From assembly GCA_012862575.1 (NCBI GenBank), contig BLSF01000014.1:62001-126000 (forward strand): a DNA stretch of 64,000 nucleotides, written 5' to 3'. Positions 18,230 through 34,751 of the stretch are shown here, piece by piece. The notes under the pieces were generated by a model that saw only the letters and a program-made list of their open reading frames with translations, made no database searches and was not told the DNA's origin. Both the position numbers and the translations under genes were made by a program. Position 1 is the first letter of the stretch; every line of letters begins with the position of its first letter. This DNA comes from Parietichytrium sp. I65-24A. Taxonomy: Eukaryota > Sar > Bigyra > Thraustochytrida > Thraustochytriidae.

Positions 18230-19216
18230 CCTTGTGCACTTTATTGTTGTTATCATCTCAACCCCTCCCATCTGAATCGATATTTTGTATCTTTACCCAA
18301 AGTAATCTCAAAAGCCAACAGCTGCTCAATCTTTCACCCTTTCGAATCTTTCTTGCAATTCAGGGTTCGTCAACTCATCCATCCTAATCCATCTCCAATC
18401 AATCAATCAATAAAAAAATCAAAAGGGACGAATAGATTCTGACCATCACCGATTGAAATCAATTCAAATCGAAATTCAAAACAAATGGACGCGGAAGTGG
18501 AAGTGGAAGTGGAAAACAAGCTAAACAAACCCTTCAAAGTTTCGTCCCGGAGCACTGGCTCTGAGTGCCACCAGTGCCATCAGGTGCCATCGTGACCATG
18601 ATCGTGGCATGATCGTGATCATGGTCATGAGAATCATGATGGATACTACCCTAGCAGCAGCTACACTCGCGCTGTCGCACACTCCGATCGAAACGCGTAC
18701 GAGTGTCCTAGTTCGTCTCGGAGCGAAACCCGGAAGGAGACGATAACGATACCGCGTTTTTAAGTACCTGAATCGCATAGCTCCGGCGCTAGCAGAGGCG
18801 GAGTGGCTCCACACGTCTCGATTGTCTCAATAGTCTCAATGTCGATTACGCTTCTCCATTCTTTCTTACTTCACTCCCATCTTTCTTGGCTTTGCCCTCC
18901 TTTGCCCTCTTCGCCCGCTTTCACTTTCGCCTCTCAAAACCCACAGTGGAGCAATCTGAAAGCTCAAAGCTCAAAGCTGAGTGAGTGCGCACGGCGTTTG
19001 CTTTTGCTCAACCTTCACACGGCTTGGCTTGCCTCGCTGCACCGCTTGCAAAAGCTCAGGGGACTGTGATGCGCGCGCGAGCGACTGCGTGCAAGTGAAC
19101 CCGGAGCTACAGGAACACAGGAGCGCGTGGCGGACGCGGGGTGGTGGTGAGCTGTGGAAAAAAAGCAGGGCCTGCGTGGCAAGGGGCAAGACACGAAATC
19201 TTCTGATCAGATCGAA
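18230..19216. other. Intergenic region
   Basis: Contains a GGAAGT triple repeat near 18490-18510 and an inverted repeat, GACCATGATC (18594-18603) with GATCATGGTC (18617-18626), inside a run of ATGATC/GATCAT words. No gene is seen. The JmjC frame is open for 63 nt upstream of its ATG. Confidence 0.5.
18594..18626. repeat. Perfect 10-bp inverted repeat with 13-nt loop
   Basis: GACCATGATC and GATCATGGTC are exact reverse complements; the loop also contains CATGATCG. Confidence 0.8.
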
Positions 19217-22150
19217 ATGGGTGAACTCAAGCGCAAAACAGGGCTGTCCAGGGACACCAAGTTGGTCCTGGTTATTGTGGTGCTCCTCGGGCTTCTGTCC
19301 TTGATTTTCGTAAGATCGCATCTTACGCTGGTGACGGCATCGTTGCTGGTGAAAGTGTGTAGGAGGCCCGGCTGCTATTCTACCGAGCCGTTTGACCTTG
19401 AGGTGTTCAAGTCTGACCACGCCGCACTGGAGCTGCCGGAGGAAAACAACATTGTTAGCGATGGCGAGGAAGTCTTTGCGCAGAGCGAGGATACCCTGGC
19501 CCCCTCGAATCAGGGCGAGGAAGAACCAGAGGGCCTTGCGAATCACGCAAAGTACTCAGAAAGGCTCAGCAACCCCTCGATTTCCGAGAAAGAGGGCCTC
19601 GAGCTCGACCCTGAAGACGATCGCCACGGAACTCACCACCTTTACAATCGAAACTTTGATCGCATCCTCGCAAGCACAAACTGGACCGAGAGGGCTCTAC
19701 ACGAATTTAACATCGACCTCGAAGACCCTTTCTATTCATTTGCCGAACTGAAAGAGCTTCACGGCCCATTTTGTCAGCCTCTCCGCCACTGCAGTGTGAA
19801 GACATCCAGCAATTTCTTCTTCCGGGGAGGGCACTGGCGGCAGAAGGGGTATGACATGGAAGGGCCGACTGCTCCAGACTCTAGCGCTGATGCTGCTGTT
19901 TTGAGTGCCCCCGTCTTCAACCCTTACGACTGCTGGACCTACGAATTCTCGGGTAAAGAAAGCTGGACCAAACCAATTGATGATGGGCGCACTTTCCAGC
20001 GAATTGGAATTGTTCTTGACGACGGGACCAGCCAAACAATGTCTTCCGCCACGCAAGAGTTCTCCGATAGTCTGCATTTTGTGCAGTCCGCTACACCTGG
20101 ATCCCTTGCGGACGAGGAAACCCTGCTGCGGAGACTAACGGACATCATCTTGACAAAGAGAAAGACAAAGCGCGTAGTTCTAACACTTGCTTCCACGTGG
20201 CAGCCGATATTTAGCGGCGAGAATCAGCTCGTGAATCAGCTTTGGCGTCTTGCTGGCCAGCTGCCAGTGTCTGCGGCTCGCGTGGTTTGGATTTCGAGGC
20301 CGTTCAGCAACACAAACAACACAGCTTCCGCAATCGAGACCAACGAGCGAATGCGGCGCGCTATTGCCAGCGTCAACGTTGCACGGTCCGCTGAAATGCT
20401 TGTCATGAACTCCAACACAGAAGACATGTTTGCCATTACGACCCCCCCTGACGGTGTTCAAAGCGATTCGCGCGTGACAAAGAGTATGGCGGCTAATCAG
20501 CGGCCAAAGCAAGCAAGGTTCGCAAAACCAATCGCCATCACTGCATCTCGGTTTACTGAAAATGAGGATCTCAGCGACTACGTCCTTGTTGATGCGAGAT
20601 TTCAGACTGCGCCATCACGGACAAACCCGACCGCGGTAAGCTCGTTTGTGGATCAATTTGCTAGCTTTCGGCTCACTGTGAAGCAGCTTCGCCAAGACTG
20701 GAATCTTGCATTACACCCGGACGCGAAGATTCTGATTGTTTGTGATAATGGAGGAGAATCCCGCAAGATTGCCGAAATCCTGAGAAGGCAAGGTTTTGTG
20801 AACGCAATTTCGCTCAAAGGGGGTCTGCGAGAACTTGCAGCACTCGCAGCTAGCCCCAGCTCAAATTTGCGTGATGGTGTTTCGGGTGCCTCGCCGCCAA
20901 ATGATAATGAAAGTGAAGAAACTGTAATAAATGGCGCCGGTGAACGGAGCGCAGTCGACACCTCCGCTGATCCTGCCAATTCTTCGGATAAGTTGGGGGA
21001 TGCGACCGCAGCGAAGCCAAATCTGAACATCTTCGACGCTTCACTCGAAGCGAGGCCACGAAAGATTGTCGAGCGTTTGCAGCTCACTGGTTTGGACCTG
21101 TTCGCACCTACCCTCACTTCTCCTGCTTACATTGCCGATCCTCAGGACCATCGTATCATGTCGCACTTTGTCGGAAACTATCTGATGAATCTCATGTTTC
21201 AGCGTGAGATCTTGGGATCTACACTCTCGCACTCTTCCGAGAACGAACACGTCTGCAAAACCTATGGACACTGCTCTTCGTGCTTTTTGGTCAATTCACG
21301 GGTGCCATCAAGTCGAATCAACCATGTACTTCTCGAGCACTACTTTTCAAGTTGGGGAGTGCCCACCATCATAAGTTTGGAGGAGGACCAAAAGGTGTGG
21401 AAGGGAACGTGGCTTTCCTTTTTGGAGGAGAATAAGAGCAAAATGCTGAACGTCCGCAGGAATTACGAGACGGCCAACTCAAGGCAATTCTCTCAACAAA
21501 CTCTTGAGGCCTACTTGACGGCTACCGGGATCGTGGAGAAATCCGCGGACGGGACGTTCCGCGAAACGGTCGAAACTCCCTTCTCCACTGACGGCGGTAA
21601 GCTGCCCACATACGCTGGCAACAACAAGTTAAGTAAGCAGATGATGAGCAAGTTCCGCTTCAACTACCCAAAATGGTACAGCGTGAATGCCCTCCAGACG
21701 CCGTCAATGTGGTTGGGCCCCAAAGGCTCGTTCAGTGCCCTTCACCAAGACCATAGAAACGATGGTAACCTAGCATACCAAGTTCTCGGTGAGAAGCGCT
21801 GGCATTTGTTCCCGCCAAGAGTGTTTGATTGGACATATCCAAAGCATATCGGAGTCGTCTGGTGGTCGAAAATCACCAACCCGGAAGCATTTACCGAGCA
21901 GCTCGCAAGCCAGTATCCGCTCTTCAAACTGGTCCTTGCACATACCATTCTCCTGGACGTGAAAGAAGGCGAACTTCTTTACAATCCTGATAAATTCTTT
22001 CACGTGGTGTACAACACGAAGAGCAGCCTCATGCTCAACTTTTGGGTCAAAGTGCAGCCGGGTGATCAGTCACAAAGACCAGAACAGCAGCAACAGGTCC
22101 CTCCGCGAGTCAGTCAACCAAGGCCTCAGGTGAATACTAACAAGGTGTAA
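19217..22150 (+). CDS. Type II membrane protein with rhodanese-like and JmjC (cupin) domains
   Basis: 977 residues from the ATG at 19217. A short basic N-terminus is followed by a single transmembrane anchor (about 16-32), predicting a type II protein with most of the chain in the ER/Golgi lumen. A rhodanese-like domain sits at about 452-535: DYVLVDARF, then ILIVCDNGGESRKIAEILRR with the candidate catalytic Cys509, and a conserved GGLREL end. The C-terminal JmjC/cupin-8 domain starts SMWLGPKGSFSALHQDHRN; iron ligands would be H843, D845 and H929, with GEKRWHLFPPRV as the family hallmark. JmjC proteins are Fe(II)/2-oxoglutarate oxygenases. The region 170-440 is conserved-looking but unrecognised. 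Acting on secretory-pathway proteins or glycans is inference from the topology. Confidence 0.8.
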   Translation: MGELKRKTGLSRDTKLVLVIVVLLGLLSLIFVRSHLTLVTASLLVKVCRRPGCYSTEPFDLEVFKSDHAALELPEENNIVSDGEEVFAQSEDTLAPSNQGEEEPEGLANHAKYSERLSNPSISEKEGLELDPEDDRHGTHHLYNRNFDRILASTNWTERALHEFNIDLEDPFYSFAELKELHGPFCQPLRHCSVKTSSNFFFRGGHWRQKGYDMEGPTAPDSSADAAVLSAPVFNPYDCWTYEFSGKESWTKPIDDGRTFQRIGIVLDDGTSQTMSSATQEFSDSLHFVQSATPGSLADEETLLRRLTDIILTKRKTKRVVLTLASTWQPIFSGENQLVNQLWRLAGQLPVSAARVVWISRPFSNTNNTASAIETNERMRRAIASVNVARSAEMLVMNSNTEDMFAITTPPDGVQSDSRVTKSMAANQRPKQARFAKPIAITASRFTENEDLSDYVLVDARFQTAPSRTNPTAVSSFVDQFASFRLTVKQLRQDWNLALHPDAKILIVCDNGGESRKIAEILRRQGFVNAISLKGGLRELAALAASPSSNLRDGVSGASPPNDNESEETVINGAGERSAVDTSADPANSSDKLGDATAAKPNLNIFDASLEARPRKIVERLQLTGLDLFAPTLTSPAYIADPQDHRIMSHFVGNYLMNLMFQREILGSTLSHSSENEHVCKTYGHCSSCFLVNSRVPSSRINHVLLEHYFSSWGVPTIISLEEDQKVWKGTWLSFLEENKSKMLNVRRNYETANSRQFSQQTLEAYLTATGIVEKSADGTFRETVETPFSTDGGKLPTYAGNNKLSKQMMSKFRFNYPKWYSVNALQTPSMWLGPKGSFSALHQDHRNDGNLAYQVLGEKRWHLFPPRVFDWTYPKHIGVVWWSKITNPEAFTEQLASQYPLFKLVLAHTILLDVKEGELLYNPDKFFHVVYNTKSSLMLNFWVKVQPGDQSQRPEQQQQVPPRVSQPRPQVNTNKV

Positions 22151-22328: not shown

Positions 22329-24890
22329 TCACTGGGACGCTTCAATGAACAGCTTCATGTGCAAATCTGCGCTCTCCCCGCCGTACTCGAATTTTTTGAG
22401 CCATTCGATGGCAATCTCAAAGCCGTTGAGAGGTTGAATGCTCCACTCCATGAGCTGACGGACCCAAAATCTCAGCGTCGAGTCCTCGTTTGCAAGTACA
22501 CCACTTTGCAAAAGCCGCTTTTGTACAATATTCCAGGTATGATCGTGTGACTGGCCTTGCATCATATCACCGACAGCCACACCCTTCACAGTCCTTCTCT
22601 TCCGACCCTCCAGAACTTGCTTTTGACTTGATCTTGAGATCAGGTCCCTCCACTGTGACTTGCTCGCGTGAACAGCCCAAGCCATGTGAAGCATGGCTTC
22701 GCGCTCAAAAGCTGTTTCTTGCAAAAGACTTTGAGGGACACCAGATTTGATAAGACTCGCGCCCGAGACCGTTCCCGCGCGCATGTGGCTCCGCAACGTA
22801 TCTACATCTACCGGCCTTGCAGGGTTTTCCGCAATTAGACGAAGCAGAGCTCTCGCGGAGGAAATTCTCACAGCGCTTGGCCACTCTTCGTGGAGCTTGG
22901 TAAGCAGCGCAAGGTCCACAAGAGCCCAACGCCGCAATATGATCCCAGGGATGTCAAGCACACCTGGTTGGTGTTTCGAATGGCAAACAAACAATCTTTG
23001 TTGAATAGTAGCGTCCGCTTTCGCAGTAGTTGAGCAGCATCGGAAATAGCTTTCAAACTCGGAAACAGATTGGGTGGCGGACAGCGCGATGCTCTCCATG
23101 ATAGCTCCTCTTTGCAGTCTCTGCGGGGTCGCCCAATCCAGCTCAGTTGTGCCAGTCGTAGTGGCTCTCGGGACAGCGATACAGTCTGAGTCAATAGAGA
23201 AGACAGGACAAGGCAAAGCTCTAGTAAGTTTTTGAAGCATCTCGAGAGAATCTCGGGTGTAGCTTTCTGACGTCAAAACAATCTGCGTCTTTCGCTGCCT
23301 TGTAAACAGGCTCAAACAAGAAATGATGTCCTTCCCATCACAGTGGATGCCAAGTAAAGGTATTCCAAGATTGCCAAGCTCAAAGTGAAGCTCGGTGTAT
23401 GCGGTTGCAACAAACCTCTCGGGATGAGTAGGCGTGCCACCTTTCTCCAGGTGATTCAAATTCGGGCTGACAAAGCAGATTGCCAGTATGGGAAGCCCGA
23501 GCTTCTGGTGCAGCCATAAAGCATGAGAAAGAGGGATATTGTCTTCTGTACGAACAACACAAGAGGCCGTACCTCCCACCCCACCAAGCTGCAGCCAAAG
23601 AAGGATGTGGTCGCCTTTCCATCGCGTACTTAGCTTGTAGCAATGGCTTCGGCTTTGGACGAACGAAGGCCATGTATTTGTCTCCAGAAAGCTTTCGTCT
23701 CCAGCGCGGGACTCAGACACGTTCTTAGATGCTTCTCCATTAACCGCCTTGATCTCCTTTGCAACACTTTCAGTAATATCTGGGAGAAGCGCGGCATTAG
23801 CCTTTTCCTCAGCGACTGGAGCATTCCCGGGAGAGTCTAAACTTTCTTCATTGGCAGAAGAAGCTGGATCGCTTTGCAACCAGGCACGTACCGATGTTGC
23901 GGTATCCGAATCCTCAAAGTCACGAACTTGAAATGGCACAGTAGCATCGCAGGTCTTTACATTAGAAGGCACACTTCCGACATCCACGTCATCGATGTCA
24001 TGTCCTCCTCTATCATCGATTTCTTCGTTAAGGACGGTTTCAACATCACTTTCGTGCCTGCCATCCGGAGAGCATGGCGCCACCGCTGCACTTGTTGTAA
24101 TTCCTTGAAGACAATCTGAGCCAGGTGAGCAAGTCAAAGTTTTGTTAATCTCAGCATCTTTCTGCTCATCGACATTCTTGATTTGAAAACCCTCTATGTT
24201 TGCTGCGCTCTCTGAACAATCTATCTCAGGCACACAAGTAGAATGTTCGCCATTTTCAACGAATTCAATGCTCTCCTCTGTGCTTTCTGCGAGCGCCAAC
24301 CCCGAGGACAGGGGAACTTCCTGCTCTTCGCTGGTTCTGCCCGCTATTTCAACGATTGCGGTCGACTCCACCCAACCTTTCTGAGTGCGTCCATTGCTTG
24401 ATTGATCGACGGGCACATTCTCCGCATCACTATCCGCCTGTGCAATGCATTCAACACTGCTTGTGCACTGATTTGATTCTGCCGAAAGTCCATTTTCGCT
24501 CTCAACAAAAGACTTCAATAAATTCTTCTGTTTCTTGCCTGGAGCTCGATTCTGCTCCGTGGCAGCAGTTCTCTTTCTCTTTATCGCGTCTTCCATCAGG
24601 TCCCAGAACCCATCAGGCAAAGGTCTCTCATCATCGTCGCTGCACAAGATCAAAACTCAGTTTTCGTCAGTCAGTGTCTGTCTGCCCCCATCACCACCCC
24701 CCCTTCAGGCCAAGCTCCCCACCATCCAAGCCATCCAAGCACGCCCGCCATCAACAGTCCTCTACGCGCACACAATCACTCACAGCACTTCCACCACAGT
24801 GCGTCCCAGCGGATCCGCTTGGAACCGCTTTCCCCTCTGGACCAGCCCCCGCAGCAGCAAGTGCTCCACTTGCCCGCACACGTCCCCCAT
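22329..24890 (-). CDS. Class II photolyase-like protein with long acidic N-terminus (two exons)
   Basis: Predicted as exon 1 24784-24890 and exon 2 22329-24639, with a 144-nt intron (donor GTGAGT, acceptor TGTGCAG) joined in phase; 805 residues. Without the intron, exon 2 has no ATG before residue 51 of the joined protein. Residues 1-375 are low-complexity and acidic (E/S-rich). From about 378 the sequence resembles class II CPD photolyases: the ILLWLQ...TEDNIPLSHALWLHQKLGLPI N-terminal fold, then SHDHTWNIVQKRLLQSG and LRFWVRQLMEWSIQPLNGFEIAIEWL at the end. The usual terminal segment with DGRDPNG is absent. Repair activity is therefore uncertain, and a regulatory or cryptochrome-like role is equally possible. 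The gene is convergent with the JmjC gene. Confidence 0.62.
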
Positions 24891-25450: not shown

Positions 25451-28307
25451 TTATTCGTCATCGGGAAACAGTTCTTCGCGAGATGGCACTTTCAAATTGG
25501 CTACTTCTCGCATCGCGGCTCGCTGGTACCTTCGAACAATGACCTGCAAAAGCGTCTTGAAGGGAGCTTCTGCGAGGGCAGATCGGAGGTTGATTATGCA
25601 GGGTTTCATCTCAGCCAACGTATAGCCGGTAACAGCAGTGATTCGCTCCATGGCGAATGAGCTGTTTTTGCAATAAAGCGCAAGTACGAGGCAGCTCGCA
25701 GCTACGAGCGATGGCATTTTGGTGATAAAGTACTGCTCTTGTAGTGATAGCTCTGCAAGGTAGCGAGACAGAAACTGAGAGTCCAAGCACATGTCAATTT
25801 GTGGCAGCGGCTCTTTGGTAGACTGGTCGTACACGATACAGGAAATATCCTCTGCCTCATTATAAGACAATCGCACGATAAATACATTGAGGAAGTCAAT
25901 CACGGTAGGAACACTAATGCGAAAGTCGAGTGTGTTCAAAACCTGCTCTTCGAGGCGCAAAACATCCTCTTTTTCGTAGACTTTGTCGGCACAGACCACG
26001 AGGTCTTCAACGCCGATGTAAGACACGTCTTCACACTTTGATGCGACATGTAAACAAGTGGCACCAAGTAACTGGAATCGCTTCCGCCCAACCATCTCGA
26101 TTGCGAGGAAGCGGTCGGTGTAATTGACAGCCATAAACACACTTCTAACTGACATTTCAAACACATCAATCACCTCCACAAGCCAATCTACAAGCATGGA
26201 GCGATGTACAGGAAGAAGATCAGCCGGAGCACGTGGATCCCGATCAGAAGCCAACTGAGCGGAGGCAGATGATGATGATGACGAAGACGAGCCCGCTTTT
26301 TTCTGGGTCTGCGGGCTGATTACATCGACGAAGGGGAAACATCTGTGCTTCCAAGCACTTGAGATAATGGTAGTATCTCACCAAGTATACAGGATCATCG
26401 AGCCCCTGACGAGAACGAACACCGTGCTGCACCTTTTCCTGCAACTCTCTCGCATACTTCCAACAGCTCGTTTCAAACCCGTCGTCACTACCTGCAGCCC
26501 AACTCATATTGTTCAGATCAAGGTTTCCTAGCTCATTCGAGACGATTGGAAAATCTTGGTCGTCCGGAGGAGGCAAGTTGCTGTCAGCAGAACTCTGATC
26601 GCTGATAATTTTCGCCAGCGGAATGGTAGTAGGCATCAGCGGCTTTCGAGATGATGATGAAAGGGAGGAAGGTTTTCCCCCAGTCACAAGATTTGAGCTA
26701 CGGCTCTCCTCTTGGGCAGCTCGAGCAGCCTGGCGTTCGCTGTCAAAGTACGCATGCTTGAGTGCATCTTCTGCGGTAATACGCTTGTCGGGGTTAATTT
26801 CGAGCATGCGAGACATGAGGTCTAAACCCTCTTTATCGAATGCTGGGAGGTGCATGTGTACGGAGCGCTTTGGCCAGTTAGGCAACTCGAAGCTGAAGTT
26901 TGGAAGCGCCTTGAAAGTCTCCCACGTCTCCACGGTTGGGGTACCTAGCTTGCAAAATATTTGATACAGCTGGTCAATCTCACAGATACCGGGGAAAAGA
27001 GGCTTCCCCAAGATCATTTCCGCAAACACGCAGCCCACGGACCAAACGTCTACTGCAGCAAAGTATTGCCCACCCATCAGGACTTCTGGTGATCGGTACC
27101 ACAGAGTAACTACTTCAGTAGTGTAGTTTCGGAGGGGTATAGATGTGGAGCGGACGAGAGCAAAGTCCGAAATGCGTATGTTTCCTTCTTTGGCACAGTC
27201 CATCAGCCTGTGGTACACCGCATTAGTGATTGAAGTGAACCCACCATCTACAGTCGTGGATTTTGGGTCCTTCTTTGGGGTCGCCTTCGCCTTGTCAAGA
27301 TTTGATTCGCCTGAAGTGGATTCCATGCCAAGTAAGTTTTTGAGAGCAGTTCTTTCGAGGGCAACGTTCACGCAGCGGTTAGGAGAGTTTGTGAATGCAG
27401 GAATGTCGACCAGTAAGTGCTTTGGTTTGAGATTTCGGTGCAAGACACCGCGTTGATGGCAAAAAGCGACTCCCTGCAGAATCTGGAAGAGGAATCGCTT
27501 GATCAGGGGATGCGGAAGCGGGTCACCGCCGCTTGCGTCGTTGTTCGGGTTGATGAGATCGAAGAGCGACTTTTCCGTGTAGTTAAAGAAAAGATTGAGC
27601 TTGTTCTGGGCAAGGGAAATTCGCTCTATCGAGGCAATGTGCGGATGTCTGAGGCCTTGCAGAAACGCCAGCTCGCGGAGCATGTAGTATGGAACACCTT
27701 CTCCTTCCGGGTACACCCTGGCCTTTTTGCGAGCAAAAAAGCGGCCGGATCTATAATGGTACAATTTGTAGCAGTGGCCCTCAGTCCCTTTGTTTTTCAA
27801 GCCAAGGAATCGAAATGCGAGCTGATTTACGTCTCCGTCCTTTGCAAAGGACGGGACCGTTTTCCACAGCTGCCTGCTACTGCAAGTTTCTTGCCACGAC
27901 TTGGAGACGGCCCACGGACCCGTCAGGAAGCCTTCGTCATTGATGAGGTACGAAAATATCAAAATTTTGCACTCTTCAAGCAAGTCCGAGAAATGCGTGG
28001 CACGTTTTTCTCTTTTCACTCTGCTTTGGCCTCTGGCGTCTTCCAGAGACATTCTGGAGGGCGATGAGACCGTTCTGTCATCGTGGAGCTTTCTTTTCGA
28101 CACTAACGGGCTCGTAAAATGTGCTACTGCACGCGCAGGTTTCGGCGGGTCCACTTTCAACGGAATATTCGTCGGCGACGCCGAGCCGTCGGCGCACAAT
28201 GTCTCCCCGCTTTCTACCTTGTTTCCCCTAGGCTCCTCATACGATGAGCCCACCCAGCTCCCATTCCCGCGGTTCAGTTCCTGCCCGTTCGCCGCCTCAT
28301 CAGACAT
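25451..28307 (-). CDS. F-box / CDK-like pseudokinase / cyclin fusion protein (two exons)
   Basis: Exon 1 26382-28307 and exon 2 25451-26254 join in phase 0 across a 127-nt intron (donor GTGAGA, acceptor GCTCAG) to give 909 residues. The F-box is at about 105-150 (ECKILIFSYL ... AVSKSWQE ... LWKTV). The CDK-like kinase is at about 175-521: β3 Lys194; a PYYMLRE helix in place of PSTAIRE (E212); T-loop TTEVVTLWYRSPEVLMG; and CDK-type DVWSVGCVFAEM and GTP features. The catalytic HRD is HRN (N292), the Mg-binding Asn is His297, DFG is DFA (D381) and the glycine loop is degenerate; about 75 residues are inserted between HRN and DFA. An A/B-type cyclin box spans the splice (CWKYARELQEKV ... HRSMLVDWLVEV ... 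LHVASKCED), followed by a second cyclin fold. The cyclin exon alone lacks a usable start. By analogy with cyclin F it could recruit SKP1/CUL1 and bind its own kinase lobe. Confidence 0.85.
26255..26381 (-). other. 127-nt spliceosomal intron inside the F-box/CDK-like/cyclin gene
   Basis: GTGAGA at the 5' end, a pyrimidine-rich run of TCATCATCATC type near the 3' end, and CAG at the 3' end. Removal restores a continuous cyclin box. Retention would end the protein after the kinase half with a short tail. Confidence 0.75.
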
Positions 28308-29176: not shown

Positions 29177-30415
29177 ATGGCGACACTTGACTTTTGTAAG
29201 TTGCAAGGTGACCGACCACAAGGAGAACTGGGATGGATTGACGCAAGTTATGTCGGAGGGGCAGTGTCTGACGGCTGAGGATGTGTTGTTGGGGAAATGT
29301 GGAATCTGTTGTCGCGCGTGATGTTTGCGCGAGTGAAGACCAGGCGCCGGCTACGAAAGCATTGTTCTACGGGTCTGCCGCAGGAACGCTGATTTCGGCC
29401 GTGTTGTTGAAACAGCCGACTACGGGATACGGTAAGTGTGGGAAAGTCTGCAGACGGGGGTTGGAGCTTTGACCGTGTGGCTGACTTGGGATGCCTTGTG
29501 AAAGATGTCACCGCGTTTGCAAGCCTAAAGATATTCAAGGTTATGGCGAACCAGCTCGTGTTTGGAAGCATCGGGGAAATGATTATTGGACTGGGTTTGC
29601 TGTACCAGTTTCGTGTTTTTGAAAGGCGGATGAGCACGTCACGATTTTTGTCGTATACAATTTTGTCCACGCTTCTATCCATTTCATTACAGATGCTTTT
29701 CATGGTTGCCCATCCGGGGTTCGATGACCGCGCTCTGACAAGAATGCCGCCAGGGCCATACAGTGTCATCTTCTCCCTTTTTGTACAGTACTTCACCTTC
29801 ATCCCGAAGGTGCAAAAGCACTCAATTCTTGGTCTAGAGTTCTCGGAGAAGAGCTTCATGTACTTTCTAGGTGGCCAGCTCTTGTTTTCGCGCGGGCGCG
29901 AGTCTCTAGTTGCTGGTGTGTGCGGATTCATAGGTGGCCTCTTGTGCTTGAATGAGCGGCTCCCTTTCCGAAATTTTCGATTGCCTGATCAAATTCAGTC
30001 CTTCGGAAAGAATTTTCTTGCTCCCATTTTCGCGTCCAGGTCACCGGAGGAACTCGCAGCTGAGAGGGCCAGGGCTCAACAAGATAGGGTTTCACGAATG
30101 GGATATGCTGCTCAGTTAGTGGAGGGAAATGTGCAGAGGCAAGCTGCTGGGGCGAATAATGGAGCGCAAACAGATCAGCTCATTCCAGGTCCTAATCAGA
30201 TGTTTGCTGATGTCTTTCAGCAGCAGCAACGCCGATTTGGTGCACGCAATCCTGCACCTGCAGCCCAGGTTCCTGCTGCTCCCGAACCTTCGGAAGAAGC
30301 CATCGAGCAGTTGACTGCACTTGGGTTCGAACGAACTCTTGCCGTCCAGGCACTTCGAACGCACCAGAATAACGTGGAGCACGCCGCGGATAGCTTATTT
30401 CGCCAGGCACAATAA
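29177..30415 (+). CDS. UBAC2: UBAC2-like rhomboid pseudoprotease with UBA domain (three exons)
   Basis: Predicted exons 29177-29195, 29339-29431 and 29505-30415, 340 residues; human UBAC2 is 344. The spliced start reads MATLDFYQAPATKALFYG, matching the YKAPLSKSLL start of human UBAC2, and the second junction recreates the YD...-K-I-F-K region before LLYQFRVFERR. Introns are 143 and 73 nt, both with GTAAGT donors and both ending in AAG rather than CAG. A membrane domain of about five helices lacks the rhomboid Ser/His pair. The C-terminal 40 residues form a UBA domain (EEAIEQLTALGFERTLAVQAL). UBAC2 sits in the ER membrane in ERAD complexes and restrains UBXD8. First-exon and intron limits are inferred from protein alignment and phase. 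Confidence 0.78.
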
Positions 30416-30756: not shown

Positions 30757-33405
30757 TCATTTTTTCCGGTAGTACTTATTCGTTTTGGGGCAAAAGTAAC
30801 ATTCGAGGATCGGGTCATAGACCAGGTCCAATTCACTCTCTTGCGCCGCAGCTTGCTTCCTGTTTGTATTGCCTTCATCAAACGCCTTGGAAATTGATGA
30901 CTTGACAAAATTTGAGGTCAACTTATCCAAATTTTCCTCCTCGTCTTCCTCTTCCTCGAGCTCATCACCACCATCGTCTTCGTCCACGTCGATTTCACAG
31001 CTAGCCCCGAGAATTTCGGCCTCTTCTTCCTCCAGCTCATCCTCAAGCGTCTCTAACCGCTTACGCTCAGAGCTGAGATTCTCTTCAAGCTGCCGGTTTC
31101 GATGAGCGAATGCGCTGTTGACAGAAAACCTGGAATCCTCAAGTTCGTCATCCGAGTGCATTGCCATTTCTCCTCTTCCAGGGCTTCCCAGAGAAAGAGC
31201 ATCGTCTCCATCTAGCTTATCGCCGTCCTCGTCTTCATCGTCGCTCCTCTCTTCTTCTATTCTTTTGGCAGATCCAGGTCTCAGTTTCCCGGGCGGCGAA
31301 GAGCCTCCCAGTAGAGTTCTTCCGTGCTGAAGGTTGTGCCAGTAATCATCTTCGTCGCCCGCTCCGCTGTCATCTTCTCTTTCTGAGGCCTCGCCTCCGT
31401 GCGGTGCGACACTGGGAAGGCTTTCATAAACTGCTGGCGGGTCGTGAAATGCAGAAGCTTCTCCGACATCGTAATCATATGTGGAGGGTCCTTCCTGGTC
31501 ACTGCGCTCGTCGTAAGGGTTCCCGTCCTCGTCGGTCCCGGAGAAACCCTCCTCTTCATGCTCCTCTTCATGCTCTCTCAAATCAACTTGTTCGTCTTCG
31601 TCACTATCAACCATCACGTCACGGAGGACTTGCTCTTCACCACGCTTCTGTTGCAGTCGCATCATCGCTGGAAGCATCTTTGCAGGTTTTCCGCCGTTTT
31701 CATGTGCACTCCGGTCCGCGCGCGAGCTTGAAGGCCTGTCATCGTTGTGACGTAGGCTGGGCTTTGATCGGGAGCTTAACATCGGTTGTTCGTGCTCGTG
31801 CAGACTCGTATTGGAGCGCGCGCTCAATACTGGTTGCACTCCCTCGCGGAAACTAGACATGGGTGCGGAATTGTCCGTCAGACTTGATCTAGATCTTGCA
31901 CTTGACAGTGGTTGTCCATCCTCACGCAAACTGGTTCTGGAGCGGGAACTTGCCAGTGGGGCAGCGTTGTCCATCAAGCTTGATCTAGATCTTGCACTTG
32001 ACAGTGGTTGTCTATCCTCACGCAAACTGGTTCTGGAACGGGAACTTGCCAATGGGGCAGAGTTGTCCATCAAGCTTGCCCTGGATCGCGCGCTTGACAG
32101 TGGTTGACCATCCTCACGCAAACTAGTTCTGGAACGGGAACTTGCCAATGGGGCAGAGTTGTCCATCAAGCTTGATCTAGATCTCGCGCTAGATAGCGGT
32201 TCCTCACGTAAACTAGTCTTGGAGTGTGAGCTCGGCAACTTTGGGGAAACGTTTGCGGACCTGGATCGAGAACTACTCAAAGGCTCGGATCGATCTCGAA
32301 GGCTTGCCTTTGATCGAGAGCTGGCAAGGGGTGCGGCGGGGGAGTGCCTTGCAGAATACTGAAGATTAGAGGGGTACTCCTCCTCCTCCTCCATATCTTC
32401 TTCTTCTTCCTCGTTATTGTTTGGTCTTTGATGGACATCCGATCGTCCAGAGGCAAAGTGAGACCTTGCAGAAGCTGGAACTTCGGAGCCACGTCCGCTC
32501 CTCGTGCTATGCATGCTCATTTGCGATGAGCTGCGTGCACTGGCCCGGGAAGTCTCCACCCTAGAGTCGGTCGAGAGTTTCGAGGTTGGTCTAGACTTTT
32601 GGGGGCCTTCTTTGACTGCCCGAGGTCCGCTAGAGAAAGATGAGGTCGCACGCATCGTCTTGCGCGCCGTTTCCATCGGCGCTTCTGAAGGTGTCGCAGC
32701 TTCGGCGACACTAGCCACCCACTTGTGCAATGCATCCATATCGTACATAATTGTAGGTGGAGAGGTGTCCATCGCAGGGGGAAAAAGTAATTGCCGTGGA
32801 ATTGGCTTCCCCGGGCCATCGCAGCCCAGTGCATCTGATGGCACGTCCTTCAGAGTGAATATCTTTCGAAGTTGAAAGTGTCCGTGCAAAGTCACGGACT
32901 CTAGAGCTCGGTGCATGACCCCCTTGAAATTGCTGGCTACGACTTTCGGAAGGTCAAAGCACAGCGTTATCCACTCCCCACGAGGAAGTAAATACTCTTG
33001 CAGGTCTTCCTCGGCGAATCCTCGATGCGGTTTAAATCCGGACGCTATGGGTACCTGGGCATGAAGAGGGTTCGTGACAAAACTTCGGAATCCGTGTGAG
33101 AAAACTAATCTTCTTCGGGTTCGCGATGTATCAGATATGACGAGCTCGATCGAGAAAGGCTCCATCGAGGCGGGGATAGACATTTGCAGCGCGAGGATCG
33201 GTTGCGTGAGCCCCAGCACTTTTTTAGTCTTGGGATCCGGAAGCTCGACTTTGCTCTGCTGCCCACCCTCGCTCACCAGCGCATTCCCTTTCAGCTCCTT
33301 GTCGAATGTCTTCTTCACCCTGCCTTTCACACCAACATCTTTGAGTGGGGCGGTGCCCTGGGTGCTGAAAACTTCTACGCAAGGGCCACCTTGATACTTG
33401 AACAT
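30757..33405 (-). CDS. CFAP20-domain protein (CFAP20DC-like) with tandem repeats
   Basis: 882 residues from an ATG (33405) that gives the family-typical MFK start. Residues 1-190 form a CFAP20/DUF667 domain: MFKYQGGPCVEVFS, a LGLTQPILALQ core strand, ELVISDTSRTRRRLVFS, and GEWITLCFDLPKVV with the RKIFTLKD end. The middle (about 270-600) is Ser/Arg-rich and contains a 32-residue repeat (LSSARSRSSLMDNSAPLASS type, then SRTSLRED), present about three times nearly identically and further times in diverged form. The C-terminal third is very acidic with a likely coiled coil (ERKRLETLEDELEEEEAE) and ends in a YDPILECYF.P.T.KYY motif. CFAP20 proteins occur in cilia but also in aciliate lineages, with nuclear roles; which applies is unknown. 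Confidence 0.78.
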   Translation of the reverse strand: MFKYQGGPCVEVFSTQGTAPLKDVGVKGRVKKTFDKELKGNALVSEGGQQSKVELPDPKTKKVLGLTQPILALQMSIPASMEPFSIELVISDTSRTRRRLVFSHGFRSFVTNPLHAQVPIASGFKPHRGFAEEDLQEYLLPRGEWITLCFDLPKVVASNFKGVMHRALESVTLHGHFQLRKIFTLKDVPSDALGCDGPGKPIPRQLLFPPAMDTSPPTIMYDMDALHKWVASVAEAATPSEAPMETARKTMRATSSFSSGPRAVKEGPQKSRPTSKLSTDSRVETSRASARSSSQMSMHSTRSGRGSEVPASARSHFASGRSDVHQRPNNNEEEEEDMEEEEEYPSNLQYSARHSPAAPLASSRSKASLRDRSEPLSSSRSRSANVSPKLPSSHSKTSLREEPLSSARSRSSLMDNSAPLASSRSRTSLREDGQPLSSARSRASLMDNSAPLASSRSRTSLREDRQPLSSARSRSSLMDNAAPLASSRSRTSLREDGQPLSSARSRSSLTDNSAPMSSFREGVQPVLSARSNTSLHEHEQPMLSSRSKPSLRHNDDRPSSSRADRSAHENGGKPAKMLPAMMRLQQKRGEEQVLRDVMVDSDEDEQVDLREHEEEHEEEGFSGTDEDGNPYDERSDQEGPSTYDYDVGEASAFHDPPAVYESLPSVAPHGGEASEREDDSGAGDEDDYWHNLQHGRTLLGGSSPPGKLRPGSAKRIEEERSDDEDEDGDKLDGDDALSLGSPGRGEMAMHSDDELEDSRFSVNSAFAHRNRQLEENLSSERKRLETLEDELEEEEAEILGASCEIDVDEDDGGDELEEEEDEEENLDKLTSNFVKSSISKAFDEGNTNRKQAAAQESELDLVYDPILECYFCPKTNKYYRKK
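31901..32200. repeat. 96-bp tandem repeat inside CFAP20-domain gene
   Basis: Copies start near 31901, 31997 and 32093 with exact 96-bp spacing and only a few substitutions; a shorter, diverged copy follows. 96 bp is a whole number of codons, so the reading frame is kept. Confidence 0.9.
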
Positions 33406-34751
33406 GTTGCACAAAGGGGCGTAAGGCTCGCAATCCGAATCCGCCGAACGCTCTTCTTTCTGTTATTTCCCTCTCCCAAGTCGCTTCCGCAGCAGCCTTC
33501 GTCTCCGTCCTTTTACTTTTTTTCAACTCCTTTGATCCCCCGCAACTTCCCACCTAGCATCTCACCAAAGTGTCCGAAACACCTGCCTGCTCCTAGTACT
33601 ACCTTAACGATTTGATATAACGTATGCGACGGTACTCGGCTTTCAGCGAAAGGTGTGCGCGAGGACCTTGAGCGCTGGGAGTCCATGCGCCGGCCGCAAA
33701 CAATGCATTATCATTTACCCTATCTACTCTGTAGCAACGCTGCTCCAAGACCTTATGTTGCTAATGTTCAGAGTTTTGTCTTCTGTTCTGAATGAATGAA
33801 TCGTAAATGAAAGTTCAATTACAGAGCTAAAAAACGAAAAGGATCGGAGCAGTTGATTGCAATGTTGGTGCTCGACATCTCTCAAGTGGGTTTCTTTCCT
33901 GGTTCCCTTTTCATTCAATTGAATCGAGGATCAAAATCGGTTCAGAATTGCTTTCACAACTATTAGTCAACCAATCAGTCGATCGCTTGGCAGCCAAACA
34001 GTCCAACGTCCATATCTCGCCGTTGCTGGGTGTTGACGATCAAAGAGCTGTTCTCTAGGCACCCATAGTCAGCTAATAATGAGCACTACAGCTCGGCCAG
34101 TGGGATCTTCGTGAGGTTGGTTCTTGACGGTGGGTAAGCTACTGTTAGTACCGCGACGTCCCTCCTAACGATTTCACTTGTCACTTGTCAGTTGCAGGTG
34201 GGACTCACAGTCAGTCAGTTTTGAAAAGGAAAACGAAAGAGAAACTGTTCAAAAGCTCTCTCACTGCGAAGTAAGAAAAACAACGCCAAGCTAAGTTATA
34301 ACAAATAATGAGTTATTATAAATAGTTTATTAAAGAAAAGAAAAAGAAAAAGAGAAAGCTCGCACAAGTCTTTGTTTGTTCTCTTCATTTTTAAGAACAA
34401 TTGAGCAAGGCCACAGCAACGAGGGATCGATCTTTCTTGCGTCTCCGCTATACTGTTGCTACCATAAACAATACGTTTGCGTGGAGAACCAAACCACTGC
34501 ACCAGGGCGTTGCGGGGTCGTTGCAGGAGAGCACTTGAGGGAGTTTGGAAGGCGTGGAAAGTGTCCTCGGTGCGTATGAGCCGTGCGCGTACAGGTTACA
34601 GGTTACAGGTTACACGATACACAATACACAGCGCGCAGACCTCTTGAGTCTGTGTCGAGGCTCAGGAGAGTAGCTAGAAAGACAGGCCGGCATTCGCTTC
34701 GAGTTGAGCCGTCACTTGGGTGTGTTGGCGGTTTTGGTGGCTGAAGGTAAG
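33406..34751. other. Divergent intergenic region
   Basis: No gene is seen. A tandem ACAGGTT-type repeat lies at 34591-34613, with related CGATACACAATACACA just after it. A poly-A/GA mix lies near 34331-34360. Confidence 0.5.

Follow-up and report, generated by a model that had tools for sequence, protein, structure and literature searches.

A predicted pseudo-CDK and A-like cyclin in one chain behind an F-box-like segment in the thraustochytrid Parietichytrium sp. I65-24A

The window, i.e., the whole stretch of 64,000 nucleotides of contig BLSF01000014.1 that was analysed, holds on its minus strand a predicted fusion gene that runs from an ATG at 28307 to the end of a TAA codon at 25451 and encodes a protein of 909 aa after removal of an intron of 127 nt. 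Within the open frame of exon 1 no in-frame Met lies upstream of this ATG. Exon 1 (26382–28307, minus strand; 642 codons) encodes an N-terminal tail, an F-box-like segment, a CDK-like kinase that is predicted to be inactive (pseudo-CDK) and a linker, and exon 2 (25451–26254, minus strand; 267 aa followed by TAA) encodes a cyclin. The two frames had been proposed, in a sequence-only reading of the locus, to join in phase 0 across a GT-AG intron at 26381–26255 (127 nt, GTGAGA..CTCAG, minus strand), and both the coordinates and the phase hold, with the splice itself being predicted and with three acceptors fitting it.

In the stretch examined, 24 in-frame GT..AG joins of at least 40 nt are possible, and the donor GTGAGA, which is used by three of them, is the sole GTRAG-type start in this set. 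Depending on the acceptor, introns of 73, 79 or 127 nt are obtained, which lead to products of 927, 925 or 909 aa, respectively; when one of the two nearer in-phase acceptors is used and the intron is short (73 or 79 nt), exon 2 begins at 26308 or 26302, respectively, and a poly-Ser stretch is retained in the product. For comparison, GTAAGT opens each of three introns whose positions in own-genome CDK genes were derived from homology.

Both cyclin domains of exon 2 score far over the cut-off, namely Cyclin_N with 113.2 bits (residues 13–114 of exon 2; 25913–26218, minus strand) and Cyclin_C with 58.0 bits (residues 116–255 of exon 2; 25490–25909, minus strand). When compared with solved structures, this cyclin matches cyclin A2 best (E 1e-31), followed by cyclin D1 (1.3e-18), cyclin F (9.7e-18) and cyclin B1 (2.4e-16). 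Two residues that we take to be CDK contacts, Lys in ASK and Glu in LEEQVL, are kept. The MRxIL hydrophobic patch of the cyclin box is not kept, and HRSML is found at its place (26192–26206, minus strand), where the Arg and the last Leu are retained, Met is replaced by His and Ile by Met. It had been stated that the cyclin exon contains no ATG outside this core motif, and indeed exon 2 has its first Met only at residue 20, within HRSM.

The same reading held that the splice junction rebuilds the cyclin box, so that the tail of exon 1 would form its beginning, and this had to be abandoned, as the tail failed both the Pfam test and the test against a model of own-genome cyclins. The Cyclin_N score of exon 2 alone is not raised by joining (108.7 bits for the joined protein and 108.4 bits for two short joined forms), and the start of the match moves by no more than one or two profile positions, from 26 to 25 or 24. 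On a model of the N-terminal extensions of five cyclins from the same genome, the score of the tail was reached by 873 of 5000 shuffles. By eye, the tail ends with DDPVYL, and DPNYM and DPKYM are found at that place in two own-genome cyclins, a likeness that is only suggestive.

The kinase domain of exon 1 is far over the cut-off (Pkinase 161.1 bits) and finds its best solved-structure matches in CDK3 and CDK2. It is composed of a part from the N-lobe to the catalytic loop (residues 172–301; 27405–27794, minus strand), delimited by alignment to CDK3, a 71-residue insert between the catalytic loop and DFA (residues 302–372; 27192–27404, minus strand) and a C-lobe that corresponds to the best Pkinase stretch (residues 373–521; 26745–27191, minus strand). 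The set that characterizes an active CDK (HRD, Mg-binding Asn and DFG) is lost in all three elements. HRD is replaced by HRN (residues 290–292; 27432–27440, minus strand), as judged from the CDK3 alignment and own-genome CDKs; according to the alignment, His 297 (27417–27419, minus strand) replaces the Asn of the catalytic loop, which is presumably the Mg-binding one; and DFG is replaced by DFA (residues 381–383; 27159–27167, minus strand). The kinase thus reads HRNLKPKH and DFA, whereas three own-genome CDKs read HRDLKPQN and DFG, and the same is seen in the CDK3 alignment. The HRN substitution had gone unmentioned in the sequence-only reading.

Other positions of the kinase are kept, namely Lys in ARKK, RE in PYYMLRE, which stands at the PSTAIRE position (residues 206–212; 27672–27692, minus strand), the Arg preceding the Asn, Asp in DFA and, in the T-loop, TTEVVTLWYR with its Thr (Thr 396; 27120–27122, minus strand). 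Apart from the Asp of DFA, these are presumably residues of cyclin and T-loop control, and the position of Thr 396 is taken to be that of the T-loop Thr of CDKs. With both the catalytic Asp and the Mg-binding Asn replaced, the kinase is predicted to be dead, and its catalytic inactivity is considered likely. As for the claim that the locus encodes a cyclin with its kinase partner covalently attached, the predicted single chain is well supported, but given the loss of the catalytic Asp it is unlikely that the partner is a working kinase. The 71-residue insert is missing from the three own-genome CDKs, and either a genuine insert or a hidden in-frame intron could explain it; the donors within it were inspected by eye and none was convincing.

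In front of the kinase lies the F-box-like segment (residues 112–151; 27855–27974, minus strand). It matches PF12937 with 15.7 bits in exon 1 (E 0.013), 15.2 bits in the joined protein (E 0.018) and 17.7 bits in a fragment of 85 aa (E 0.003), and PF00646 with 10.6 bits, and it stays under both Pfam cut-offs, which are 24.3 bits for PF12937 and 20.5 bits for PF00646. In the genome-wide PF12937 search it ranks 29th of 32 matches (E 0.43), 17 places being over the cut-off, and among 14 prokaryote control genomes, matches with E values of 1 or lower occur in three but do not reach the cut-off. On an own-genome F-box model, built from 12 of the 17 places that pass the PF12937 cut-off, the 85-aa fragment, which had been picked from the Pfam match, scored 6.7 bits, and this value was reached by only 5 of 5000 shuffles. 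In a tile control the tiles of the segment came top of 513 tiles, taken from the 17 frames of at least 300 codons in this window, with the next best scoring 3.7. The 12 own-genome F-boxes, when left out in turn, scored from 11.3 to 39.1 bits, all above the 6.7 bits of the segment.

A search of solved structures with the F-box-like fragment returned no F-box protein and one unrelated chain (E 1), and AlphaFold single-sequence models of the region (mean pLDDT 44.7 and 54.7) were too poor for use. The LP motif of the F-box is not kept, LL being found instead in LLEECKILIFSYL. Of the earlier statement that an F-box stands in front of the kinase it can be retained that an F-box-like pattern is present, but this pattern lies under both Pfam cut-offs; judged from the sequence, a real F-box is moderately favoured. 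The genome contains one match to SKP1 and five to cullin, so that SCF should be available in the cell, and the built-in SCF link that had been proposed would depend on the sub-threshold F-box.

In the N-terminal tail, between residues 44 and 82 (28062–28178, minus strand), SP sites are found at 44, 66 and 82 and RKL at 72, a combination that makes the fusion protein a possible CDK substrate. The protein also contains several stretches of RxxL, a short motif that arises by chance, and no KEN box was found in it.

CDKs that carry a cyclin at the C-terminus were described in oomycetes. Four such proteins of Phytophthora infestans, including PITG_21617, in which Cyclin_N and Cyclin_C stand at the C-terminus, were published in 2010 and confirmed by RT-PCR, and all four have Asp replaced by Asn in subdomain VIb (PMC3019232). 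According to that paper, related fusions with the same Asp-to-Asn replacement occur in other oomycetes, two ciliates and Theileria annulata; the authors judged the oomycete fusions to be possibly inactive and proposed that the cyclin domain may regulate stability (PMC3019232). The predicted Parietichytrium protein shares with the P. infestans fusions the order of a CDK-like kinase followed by Cyclin_N and Cyclin_C as well as the replaced catalytic Asp. It differs from them, as far as the oomycete side is known by its published description, in having additionally the Asn-to-His and DFG-to-DFA replacements, the 71-residue insert and PYYMLRE, and an F-box is not reported there, the word "F-box" being absent from the main text of PMC3019232.

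Since the same Asp-to-Asn replacement is seen in an independent lineage, fusion and loss of the catalytic Asp appear to go together, and this is the most telling result of the analysis. Even without the F-box, a further lineage is thereby obtained in which Asp-to-Asn accompanies the predicted fusion, an indication that the dead state is selected for. The sequence-only reading considered a chain with all three domains to be undescribed; this is wrong for kinase plus cyclin (PMC3019232), but F-box, kinase and cyclin in one protein were not found together in the open-licence literature, searched mostly through titles and abstract starts, and the novelty of three domains therefore stands, if the F-box is real. 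In the open-licence literature no functional study of the oomycete CDK-cyclin fusions was found either.

In the joined frames the CDK-like kinase is followed by C-terminal Cyclin_N and Cyclin_C, and a single polypeptide is predicted from the splice. It is very probable that kinase and cyclin indeed form one chain, because the cyclin exon has no start before residue 20 and no stop codon interrupts exon 1 ahead of the GTRAG donor; the strongest support comes from outside, namely from the same order confirmed by RT-PCR in P. infestans (PMC3019232). The in-frame join per se is weak evidence, because 24 such joins are possible, and this, together with an exon-1 tail that is not recognisable as cyclin in two tests, would speak for two genes, or for a cyclin with its first exon elsewhere, in which case the fusion protein would not exist. 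The missing start before residue 20 of the cyclin exon, the open run of exon 1 as far as its GTRAG donor and the RT-PCR-confirmed precedent of identical order (PMC3019232) speak against such an arrangement, which is very improbable. Among the 20 Cyclin_N places and the 73 kinase places (69 of 187 candidates scored) of the genome, only the fusion locus has both, the nearest other pair being about 60 kb apart, on C2, and the fusion gene is single copy as far as searched. No relatives of the fusion were found in viral contigs (two scans) or prokaryote contigs (one scan), which are collections without eukaryote genomes. If one chain is accepted, it may be asked whether the attached cyclin turns the kinase on despite HRN. 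The kept Lys and Glu, the Asp of DFA and the T-loop Thr would all be in line with self-activation; nevertheless, with the catalytic Asp and the Mg-binding Asn both lost, with DFG turned into DFA, and with oomycete genes of the same Asp-to-Asn replacement judged possibly inactive by the authors who described them (PMC3019232), this explanation is very improbable.

As described in two reports, cyclin F, which does not bind CDKs and does not activate them, recognizes its substrates by means of the cyclin box, the hydrophobic patch of which brings RxL substrates to SKP1-CUL1; when Met/Arg or Met/Leu of the patch are changed, substrates are lost (PMC8670743, PMC4738361). The LP-to-AA mutant of cyclin F was described not to promote CDC6 ubiquitylation (PMC4738361). 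The predicted fusion protein resembles cyclin F (FBXO1) in that an F-box, here only F-box-like, stands before the cyclin and in that the cyclin would have a role other than CDK activation. It differs from cyclin F in that neither LP nor MRYIL of the latter is kept, and its cyclin is closer to cyclin A2 than to cyclin F (E 1e-31 and 9.7e-18, respectively). Cyclin F has, to our knowledge, no kinase domain. Among solved structures, each half of the fusion is most like CDK1/CDK2 and cyclins A and B, respectively; there, in contrast, kinase and cyclin are separate chains and the kinase is active.

The domains and their order, the lost catalytic residues, the kept residues of CDK control and the SKP1 and cullin genes of the genome are observed. 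It is tentatively proposed, at somewhat less than an even likelihood and partly by analogy, that the locus encodes an oomycete-like pseudo-CDK and an A-like cyclin in one chain with an F-box-like front, which would serve as a binding module that possibly feeds SCF in the manner of cyclin F. The dead kinase and the cyclin would pack together as CDK2 and cyclin A do, and the kinase-binding face of the cyclin would then be filled by an inert partner; with this face occupied by a dead CDK of the same chain, the cyclin would be unable to activate a real CDK. The module would act by binding, with cell-cycle proteins held on the surfaces of its cyclin and its CDK, and should the F-box be real, it would pass the held proteins through Skp1 binding to SKP1-CUL1 for ubiquitylation, like cyclin F does. 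Without the F-box the protein could still be a pseudo-CDK/cyclin scaffold or competitor. The most far-reaching form of this proposal, that of an SCF receptor capped by its own dead kinase, in which the substrate reader is a whole one-chain CDK-cyclin complex with the kinase killed by mutation, is rather unlikely. If true, the docking signals of a real CDK-cyclin would be read by it, and the proteins would be destroyed and not phosphorylated. If fusion and F-box are both real, a CDK-cyclin pair in one chain, with its chemistry off and a CDK used purely as a binding surface, would be joined to the ubiquitin system, and a testable function would be offered for the dead oomycete CDK-cyclin fusions known since 2010.

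The weak points of the SCF-receptor reading are LL for LP and HRSML for MRxIL, and with them an F-box score under the cut-off and oomycete relatives for which no F-box is reported (main text of PMC3019232) make it quite possible, though well short of an even likelihood, that the N-terminal stretch is no working F-box and that the pseudo-CDK/cyclin is a scaffold or competitor for CDK-cyclin regulators or substrates with no link to SCF. What argues against this explanation is that the F-box-like score was reached by so few of the shuffles and was the best of all tiles. The F-box could also be real and yet be used for turnover of the protein itself or of its bound partner, with the cyclin part timing the protein's own destruction. 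The proposal that the cyclin domain of such fusions may regulate stability (PMC3019232) and the several RxxL stretches, chance-prone as they are, would suit this explanation, but with no direct evidence for it and no KEN box it is improbable.

Several frames around the fusion gene and elsewhere were also noted. Upstream of the fusion gene and divergent from it, the frame at 29411–30415 (plus strand) encodes a membrane-like protein, which has a UBA domain (35.9 bits) at its C-terminus and which we take to resemble UBAC2. At 30757–33462 (minus strand) lies a gene for a CFA20-domain protein, CFA20 being linked to cilia, with a tandem repeat of 48/96 bp at 31859–32184. On the other side, a frame of 775 aa (22329–24656, minus strand) contains, after a long N-terminal part without a match, a DNA photolyase domain of weak score (29.8 bits with 26.6 as cut-off; residues 369–502), and at 19151–22150 (plus strand) rhodanese (24.0 bits, cut-off 22.2) and Cupin_8 (71.9 bits) are found in one chain. 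In the genome, a PfaA search gave 13 matches, all of them under the cut-off, and neither a labyrinthulomycete 18S primer nor an 18S core pattern had a match; with 18S absent altogether from the matches, these searches carry no information on the lineage. Outside the window, a frame of 5583 codons (G000:C66:8562-22499) gives repeated ketosynthase-type matches and appears to encode a giant polyketide or fatty-acid synthase.
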